The position numbers and the translations under genes were made by a program. Below are positions 12,714 to 20,902 of a DNA stretch of 20,902 nt, in pieces (the first letter of the stretch is position 1; every line of letters begins with the position of its first letter). Source of the stretch: a virus; IMG/VR virus record IMGVR_UViG_3300047554_000847, positions 1-20,902 of that record; one strand, given 5' to 3'. The notes beneath the pieces are model-generated. The model saw nothing but the letters and a program-made list of their open reading frames with translations, made no database searches and was not told the DNA's origin.

Positions 12714-12894
12714 GTGCGCCGGCTGGTTCACCGGCACAATAAATTTGAACTATCCCGATGCAACGACCGTCCTGGCTTAACAGCGGCTGGCATCTGTAAG
12801 GGGGAAACGCAGTAACTCTCTCTGGTGGGTAAAGGCAGACCGTGGACCACTTATATAGATGCTTCGAGGCGATAGCGACCGACCGCATACGCAC
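12714..12894. ncRNA. Candidate structured non-coding segment
   Basis: No credible gene. The ends pair: GTGCG (12714-12718) with CGCAC (12890-12894). Inside, GATGC (12757-12761) pairs with GCATC (12790-12794) enclosing CCG/CGG and CTG/CAG steps around a GCTTAA loop, and GTGC plus CGG (12714-12722) can alternatively form a hairpin with CCGGCAC (12731-12737). A terminator-like hairpin follows at 12898. Strand is uncertain because these pairings exist on both. It resembles no riboswitch, ribozyme or intron core that I can name. Confidence 0.3.
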
Positions 12895-20112: not shown

Positions 20113-20123
20113 CGTTTTTTTTC

Positions 20124-20152
20124 TTGACAAACGAAAGCCGTTGTGCTTTAAT
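20124..20152 (+). promoter_or_regulatory. Strong sigma70 promoter, plus strand, for RNA/98-aa unit
   Basis: Perfect TTGACA (20124-20129), 17 bases, TTTAAT (20147-20152). Its -35 box lies 11 bases from the oppositely directed -35 box at 20107-20112; together they form an inverted repeat, so one bound protein could block both. Confidence 0.8.
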
Positions 20153-20183
20153 GACAGCCAACGAACAAGGTTCTTTGAGAAAT

Positions 20184-20291
20184 GCTGGTGTGGCGGAAGA
20201 GTAAAGACGCCCTGACATGCGGACTTTCCCGGAGGTCAGCAAACGTGGGAAGAAAAGAACATCCAGGTATCAAATCCTGGCACCAGCACCA
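20184..20291 (+). ncRNA. tRNA-like RNA with CCA end and enlarged anticodon arm
   Basis: The ends form a 7-bp acceptor-like stem, GCTGGTG (20184-20190) with CACCAGC (20281-20287), followed by ACCA. A class-II-type D arm, GCG (20193-20195) with CGC (20208-20210), is joined by TG as in tRNA-Leu. The T arm is CCAGG (20263-20267) with CCTGG (20276-20280), but its loop TATCAAAT has eight bases and lacks the standard TTC. The anticodon arm CTGAC (20212-20216)/GTCAG (20235-20239) has an 18-base loop with an inner CGG/CCG step, so no ordinary anticodon exists. CTTTCCC within it can pair with GGGAAG (20247-20252). The D loop lacks the GG pair. Confidence 0.55.
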
Positions 20292-20357
20292 GATAAGCGA
20301 CCCGCATCGAGGGTAGGAGTATCAGGTGCAAACAACTTAATATGAAGGAGATTGATT

Positions 20358-20654
20358 ATGGAAAAGACTTTACACAATTCGGACGTATCGGGAGCAAGGA
20401 AAAACGTGAAGGACATTGTTGTTGTTGGAAACGGAGATATGTTCCGCCTTCTCTGCAAGGCATCGAGTCAAGAGGAAGGGTGGATGAAGTCCACTAAGGC
20501 GATGGATGTTGGTCATGGCTGTGTTGTCCAAGTAACGACGCAGCAGAGAAATATTGACTTAACGTACTCGGTTGCCGAAGCGCTGGCTTATGTCCCAGGT
20601 GTTCAGATTGTTGACGACGCGAATAACGGGCGAAAACTCGTTCCACGCACCTGA
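20358..20654 (+). CDS. Hypothetical protein, 98 aa
   Basis: MEKTLHNSDVSGARKNVKDI then VVVGNGDMFRLLCKASSQEE and GWMKSTKAMDVGHGCVVQVT, ending VPGVQIVDDANNGRKLVPRT. The repeated short hydrophobic strands (DIVVVGNG, MFRLLCKAS, GCVVQVTTQQ, ALAYVPGVQIV) suggest a small beta-rich domain; I recall similar hypothetical phage proteins with KSTKAM and VVQVTTQQ. AAGGAG precedes the ATG at 20358; the in-frame codons before it lack a start signal of their own. It is the only protein gene in the RNA-rich end, between two copies of the CCA 12-mer. Confidence 0.7.
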   Translation: MEKTLHNSDVSGARKNVKDIVVVGNGDMFRLLCKASSQEEGWMKSTKAMDVGHGCVVQVTTQQRNIDLTYSVAEALAYVPGVQIVDDANNGRKLVPRT

Positions 20655-20679
20655 GCGACCTGGACGGCAGCACCAGATA

Positions 20680-20783
20680 TGCTGGGAGAGCACTGGCTGG
20701 AAAGAGGCCGATAGGGTACGGCGATTGGGCACAGGACCCGTCGGCAGACGCCTTAATATGCGGCCGTGGAATGCTACCCAGCA
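20680..20783 (+). ncRNA. Second structured unit closed by TGCTGGG/CCCAGCA
   Basis: TGCTGGG (20680-20686) pairs with CCCAGCA (20777-20783), followed by CCAG. Inside, GGCCG (20706-20710) pairs with CGGCC (20761-20765) and GGCG (20720-20723) with CGCC (20749-20752), with a GGG/CCC hairpin (20727-20739). Like the first unit it begins ATGCTGG and ends with the CCA 12-mer, but there is no D or T arm, so it is not a tRNA. No gene on either strand is credible here. Confidence 0.45.
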
Positions 20784-20790
20784 CCAGATA

Positions 20791-20902
20791 ATGGCATGGC
20801 GGCGTGGAAGGGCACGCAACGTCGCTAACGGAGCAGGAGAGCGCATAGGGTATGCTCCTACGTTGTGTCCGGGCGGTATGCGACAGACCTGGAGCCGGTA
20901 CT
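20791..20902 (+). other. Structured non-coding tail, continues beyond window
   Basis: No gene seen. CGCAACGT and ACGTTGTG (about 20816-20823 and 20861-20868) pair with one G-T, enclosing GGAGCA/TGCTCC and GCATA-GGG-TATGC. GC-rich and cut off at the window end, so its full extent is unknown. Confidence 0.4.

Follow-up and report, generated by a model that had tools for sequence, protein, structure and literature searches.

Our analysis identifies, at positions 20184-20291 of the window (the whole stretch of DNA analysed, 20,902 bases and a complete IMG/VR record), a predicted phage RNA that, judged by its sequence, retains a tRNA's acceptor stem, D arm and T arm and in which the anticodon arm is swapped for a phage-specific structured domain. 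The replacement domain is predicted to be a pseudoknot, a tri- or tetraloop hairpin or a larger structure, and the predicted family recurs in unrelated phages, suggesting that phages may use tRNA frames for stable non-coding RNAs. With its terminase, portal and primase genes, the window itself is probably part of a larger tailed-phage genome.

The tRNA-like RNA is a cloverleaf with a 7-bp acceptor stem and without an anticodon arm, and is composed of the following parts:

20184..20190, plus strand: acceptor stem 5' strand GCTGGTG, 7/7 Watson-Crick with 20281-20287.
20192..20211, plus strand: D arm GGCG-GAAGAGTAAAGA-CGCC, tRNA-Leu-like, without G18G19 (from sequence and fold; within a 22-mer that recurs in contig L059).
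20212..20216, plus strand: 5' strand CTGAC of stem S1, at the anticodon-stem position (from the fold).
20217..20234, plus strand: 18-nt loop in place of the anticodon loop (from sequence and fold; the L059 loop likewise has 18 nt).
20225..20231, plus strand: predicted 5' strand TTTCCCG of pseudoknot stem S2 (two G-U pairs), partner 20246-20252.
20235..20239, plus strand: 3' strand GTCAG of stem S1 (from the fold).
20246..20252, plus strand: predicted 3' strand TGGGAAG of pseudoknot stem S2, in the variable region.
20262, plus strand: T at the base-48 position (T in 68/68 listed members of the T8 class defined below).
20263..20280, plus strand: T arm CCAGG-TATCAAAT-CCTGG with an 8-nt loop (from sequence and fold).
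20281..20291, plus strand: acceptor 3' strand CACCAGC (20281-20287), discriminator A (20288) and encoded CCA (20289-20291), from sequence.

The original prediction had described a 7-bp acceptor stem with discriminator and CCA, a tRNA-Leu-like D arm without GG, a T stem with an extra base in its loop and an 18-base loop at the anticodon arm. The sequence agrees with this description throughout: the acceptor is paired in all seven positions, the D stem GGCG/CGCC closes the 12-nt loop GAAGAGTAAAGA from which GG is absent, CCAGG/CCTGG closes the 8-nt TATCAAAT, and CTGAC/GTCAG closes 18 nt. The variable region comprises 23 nt. The cloverleaf is also the minimum-free-energy fold of the RNA (-37.2 kcal/mol, z -2.44), which 2 of 200 shuffles equalled. 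In addition, a pseudoknot between the 18-nt loop and the variable region is predicted, with p = 0.06 for the window element alone. A descriptor combining the acceptor, the start of the D arm and the T arm matched only this element in the window, and had zero matches in reversed or block-shuffled copies of 5 Mb. ARAGORN called no tRNA at 20184-20291, and a sensitive Rfam search of 20120-20902 reported neither tRNA nor tmRNA up to E 10.

When IMG/VR was scanned for exact copies of the 22-base D-arm string, one other contig was retrieved, L059, whose 10-kb locus has no further DNA or protein similarity to the window. The L059 element has the same D arm; at its anticodon position ACCC and GGGT enclose 18 nt, its T arm is GCAGG-TATCAAAT-CCTGT, and its acceptor GAGAAAG/CTCTCTC is not followed by an encoded CCA. 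An 18-nt loop at the anticodon position recurs in this unrelated phage. A second tRNA-like element adjoins the first (L059:4085-4190); its D and T loops are canonical, and its anticodon arm is expanded to ~45 nt. Two looser D-loop/T-loop gap patterns yielded L059 and chance matches only (L060, L061 and L062; the L061 match lies inside a gene and no cloverleaf was seen in L062), and BLAST matches in Paenibacillus, positioned inside integrase genes, were likewise due to chance. With regard to the kin of the window phage itself, relatives of its primase-helicase were sought and none was found, while its terminase identified 19 relatives, many of them fragments. No T8 element was present in the available loci of these 19, and a pattern search of seven of the terminase-relative records gave a single one-mismatch match, in a distant relative.

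BLAST with the L059 T arm pointed to unannotated gaps in the tRNA arrays of Synechococcus phage S-CAM9, Levilactobacillus phage ENFP1 and Lactobacillus phage SAC12B, and a T-arm scan of viral contigs with CAGGTATCRAATCCTG returned at least 119 stretches. Since raw counts of a 16-mer prove little, acceptor pairing was used as the test. Among the matches listed, 32 of 71 non-redundant loci have a 7/7 Watson-Crick acceptor partner for the heptamer directly behind the T stem, compared with a mean of 1.0 and a maximum of 4 loci when the upstream sequence was shuffled, and with 0-3 loci when other heptamers from downstream were used; 68 of these 71 listed loci form the fifth T-stem pair. An independent scan with the D arm alone, GTGGCGGAAGNTAGACGC, gave 91 stretches, and most of those with full sequence have a downstream acceptor partner directly preceded by a T-arm hairpin. 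The combined descriptor found at least 117 distinct elements in the collected loci and none in reversed or block-shuffled copies, and removal of real tRNAs and near-duplicates left at least 100 non-redundant elements. The 100 elements listed comprise 68 of the T8 type (8-nt TATCRAAT T loop), 18 TGARAGT-like and 14 with a canonical TTCRAAT loop, counts that describe the coherence of the family and not its abundance, since the loci were collected by these motifs and the descriptor requires at least 6/7 acceptor pairs. For the same reason, weight is carried by the tests with controls, namely the acceptor shuffle of the 71 loci and the reversed and block-shuffled descriptor searches. We define the T8 class by a 7-bp acceptor, a TGGCGRAA D arm, an 8-nt TATCRAAT T loop, the lack of an anticodon arm and a T before the T stem. 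The window RNA has all of these features, which is a placement and not a proof of membership, since the class was partly defined from the window sequence. Among the 68 listed T8 members, the T loop reads TATCRAAT in 64, and 455 of 476 acceptor cells in the matches listed are Watson-Crick (shuffled partners: mean 192.6, maximum 224).

Canonical anticodon arms at the right place are as frequent as chance predicts (6/68 listed T8 members versus 7.4 in shuffles). Together with the altered D and T loops conserved across unrelated phages, this supports the earlier proposal of a CCA-terminated tRNA mimic that cannot decode, for which a role as nuclease decoy, processing signal or primer had been suggested. 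The D and T loops vary together: outside the D-arm harvest, G18G19 is found in the D loop of 2/30 T8 members, as opposed to 7/8 members with a canonical T loop (Fisher p 2e-5). In tRNA, contacts of G18 and G19 to the T loop have been described (PMC4810234). The invariant T ahead of the T stem is compatible with a Levitt-type 15-48 pair, which in the window RNA would involve the A of GGAA. The core fold therefore seems to be kept in the T8 class, with the contacts between G18/G19 and the T loop formed differently or not at all. A direct pairing of D-loop GATA with T-loop TATC was dropped, as D-loop variants break it.

The region replacing the anticodon arm was analysed in short members (up to 130 nt, n=26) against dinucleotide shuffles. 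They are enriched for one arrangement, in which a stem follows the D arm directly and its long loop pairs with the stretch immediately ahead of the T arm: for this S1/S2 pseudoknot the summed energy has a z of -3.25, with 11 of the 26 members at p <= 0.05, compared with a z of -0.5 for a two-hairpin control in the same test. When the position constraint was lifted, the pseudoknot enrichment was weak (mean z -0.6). Some members have a further hairpin within the D loop, and lengths range from 71 to 236 nt. One T8 element of 147 nt (L091:2719-2866) contains, within its central region, a tRNA-Val(AAC) of normal appearance. Among the 68 listed T8 members the discriminator is A in 32, C in 16, T in 16 and G in 4, and CCA is encoded in 7; an unconstrained discriminator and the few encoded CCA ends argue against charging by one synthetase.

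Members of the family are present in named isolates, where they lie inside tRNA arrays. In phAPEC8 and its relatives, some of which were isolated on E. coli K-12, a member of ~75 nt occupies the gap between the annotated tRNA-Asn and tRNA-Thr, and the same tRNA-Asn/tRNA-Thr place holds a member in phi92, EmilieFrey (Bas61), arall and a Serratia phage. In phAPEC8 and phi92 the anticodon position is occupied by a hairpin with a 4-nt loop, AAGA and ATTT, respectively. Between the phAPEC8 and phi92 groups (Stephanstirmvirinae), four pairs are changed on both sides, a result matched by 0 of 500 shuffles, and in the Lactobacillus phages ENFP1, SAC12B, 521B and LP65 the acceptor, T stem and central hairpin are kept with six pairs changed on both sides; both alignments are small, so that the shuffles are indicative only. 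In cyanophage members, the anticodon position is taken by a tri- or tetraloop hairpin. In the tRNA array of phAPEC8 we also noted an unannotated stretch closed by a long terminal inverted repeat around TTGTTTTTAA/TTAAAAACAA (L276:1144-1271, phAPEC8 59710-59837), which may be a further structured RNA.

The elements are intergenic, with 5/86 overlapping an open reading frame of at least 150 aa compared with 52% of random segments, and they mostly share the coding strand of their neighbours (71/82 upstream, 64/81 downstream). No neighbouring gene is constant; terminase, portal, dCMP deaminase, endolysin, thymidylate synthase and others were seen, one element lies 68 nt downstream of a gene for a CCA-adding enzyme, and the L076 element adjoins an RNA ligase gene. 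Proximity to tRNA genes is not clearly enriched overall (13/86 within 1 kb versus 10% of random positions). The strict T arm is rare in bacterial genomes, with 14 stretches in 257 Gb, several of which are real elements in MAG contigs. A scaffold of a Sphingobacterium hungaricum isolate (L264:4597-5020) has two elements side by side, of which one is T8 and the other has canonical D and T loops; neither has an anticodon arm.

In the window, the RNA lies between two further features:

20124..20152, plus strand: putative sigma-70-like promoter, TTGACA (20124-20129), a 17-base spacer and TTTAAT (20147-20152), its activity predicted from sequence.
20358..20654, plus strand: gene of a 100-aa conserved phage protein downstream of the RNA (open reading frame with homologues).

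Transcription is predicted to start at ~20159, ~25 nt ahead of the RNA. The original description of this promoter as near-perfect holds by count, with a consensus score of 11/12, and by count only, since the single mismatch falls on the -11 A, as a rule the base that matters most in the -10 box. TTGACA-N16-18-TNTAAT sites occur twice in the window (0.03 expected); the second is perfect, lies on the minus strand and serves a divergent helix-turn-helix gene, so that the two promoters face apart. The downstream gene is probably co-transcribed with the RNA. Its product has 57 relatives (57-89% identity) in viral contigs that are otherwise unrelated, and no Pfam or PHROG family match. A conserved linkage of this gene with the RNA was rejected, as the upstream sequence is unrelated among the 57 relatives. 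The repeat CAGCACCAGATA occurs at 20284-20298, after the acceptor of the RNA, and beyond the downstream gene at 20668-20682 and 20779-20793; together with a GCTGGG/CCCAGC bracket at 20681-20781, this suggests a possible second structured RNA near the contig end. The copies at 20668 and 20779 were dismissed as family members, as the descriptor found no second class member and their folds are unconvincing. Elsewhere in the window, an EGFOA RNA candidate at 12748-12863 (plus strand) scored 34.6 bits, below the gathering score of 37.7.

Taken together, it is moderately probable that the window RNA is a natural tRNA-scaffolded non-coding RNA, processed and non-decoding, with the variable central domain as its working part. 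Such an RNA would come from its own promoter or share a transcript with adjacent phage genes, and would be trimmed by RNase P and the 3' tRNA-processing enzymes, with CCA either encoded or added. The outcome would be a stable RNA, uncharged or weakly charged and not decoding, whose variable domain could bind a factor of the host or of the phage. The rapid turnover of this domain in a conserved frame makes an inhibitor or decoy in phage-host conflict our preferred guess for its use. The scaffold model is plausible by analogy, since E. coli processes engineered tRNA scaffolds in which another RNA replaces the anticodon arm, and these are stable there (PMC3753655). RNase P and others use the canonical elbow pair G19-C56 (PMC4810234), which most members cannot form in the usual manner, and this makes processing by RNase P uncertain. 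Only tentatively do we propose a previously unrecognised class in many kinds of DNA phage, with a natural tRNA scaffold, its own elbow (a D loop without G18G19 and TATCRAAT or TGARAGT T loops) and central domains that would inhibit host RNA-binding or defence proteins. No prior report of such a class was found in the open-licence literature, which is weak evidence as subscription papers and preprints were outside the scope of the search.

Several alternative explanations were considered. The RNA could serve as a decoy, as the original prediction suggested, for tRNA nucleases of host anti-phage defence or for other proteins that bind tRNA; its frame would be bound instead of a real tRNA, and the absence of an anticodon would make it uncleavable. 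A tRNA frame without a decoding loop, the many members in phage tRNA arrays and the L076 member beside an RNA ligase gene are consistent with this explanation. Nevertheless, we consider it unlikely, as the freely varying acceptor and discriminator (A/C/T/G = 32/16/16/4) argue against one fixed tRNA target, no single tRNA being copied, and anticodon nucleases usually read the anticodon loop, the very part that is missing.

Improbable as well is the view that the fold is mere punctuation, a processing signal at which RNase P and 3' nucleases would cut polycistronic phage transcripts. Although the position of the elements between genes on the coding strand (71/82 upstream and 64/81 downstream neighbours) would fit such a role, a plain tRNA would suffice for it, members sit in tRNA arrays that already supply cutting sites, and the pseudoknots, the altered elbow and lengths of up to 236 nt would be left unexplained.

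There is a slim chance that the RNA is tmRNA-like and acts on trans-translation as a competitor or partner of host tmRNA, in which a pseudoknotted insert is likewise linked to acceptor and T arms. The related phage L283, whose terminase is 78% identical to that of the window phage, encodes a 111-nt RNA (L283:1232-1342) that scores 62 bits against the tmRNA model (gathering 47) and spans model positions 1-374. It has G3-U70 and CCA but is too short to hold the usual tag region and pseudoknots, and ARAGORN misses it; this mini-tmRNA is possibly a trans-translation decoy. In the class of the window RNA, however, the D arm is paired and the tmRNA D-loop motif is absent, the window element has T3-A70 and not the Ala-type G3-U70, and Rfam reports no tmRNA match.

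Finally, a decayed tRNA gene or a sequencing error, which the original prediction had offered as an alternative in view of the lost D- and T-loop consensus bases and the abnormal anticodon arm, is hardly credible and was rejected, since unrelated phages independently conserve the same departures, together with acceptors that pair perfectly and stems that change in compensation, and this is incompatible with decay.

The reading as a tRNA-scaffolded non-coding RNA has consequences beyond the window. Annotation tools skip these RNAs, though they are present in well-studied E. coli phages (the phAPEC8 and phi92 groups and BASEL phage Bas61), in cyanophages and in Lactobacillus phages, and the coupled variation of the D and T loops provides a natural test of the extent to which processing enzymes require the tRNA elbow.

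Among known systems, T4 RNA C and tmRNA are the nearest relatives in kind. RNA C and RNA D are stable RNAs of the T4 tRNA cluster (species 1 and 2) whose role is unknown after decades (PMC3014915; PMC9697503); if the RNAs described here are stable, that old question reopens with ~100 comparative sequences and laboratory phages. Both T4 RNAs resemble the T8 class as non-decoding RNAs in a phage tRNA cluster, and RNA C also ends in a tRNA-type T arm (CCGGG-TTCGAAT-CCCGG), but it lacks both the GGCGGAA D arm and a 7-bp acceptor (5/7 pairs at best), and its T loop has the normal 7 nt. Similarly, tmRNA (RF00023) shares the acceptor/T-arm ends, and in it a long pseudoknotted insert replaces the anticodon arm; a pseudoknot at this place is predicted for the window RNA (p = 0.06 for this copy) and enriched among short class members. 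The class differs in its D region, its much shorter length, the lack of a detectable tag reading frame and of an Rfam match, and the window RNA shows neither detection by the tmRNA family model nor the tmRNA D-loop motif. Compared with tRNA (RF00005), the window RNA has the 7-bp acceptor/T-arm stack, the discriminator and CCA, but lacks a 5-bp anticodon stem with a 7-nt loop and U33 (its loop has 18 nt), a 7-nt TTCRANN T loop and G18G19 (TATCAAAT, GAAGAGTAAAGA). It resembles tRNA-Leu (type II) in its D arm, TGGCGGAA...AGACGC, and the long region ahead of the T arm, and differs from it in having no anticodon arm, no G18G19 and an 8-nt T loop. Plant-virus tRNA-like structures such as that of TYMV also represent viral tRNA mimicry via pseudoknots (PMC4810234); they are the 3' ends of RNA genomes with a canonical D/T elbow, whereas the class consists of separate RNAs of DNA phages. 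Engineered E. coli tRNA scaffolds likewise keep the acceptor, D and T arms and replace the anticodon arm (PMC3753655), but they are man-made and have a canonical elbow, whereas the phage class is natural and its elbow usually non-canonical.
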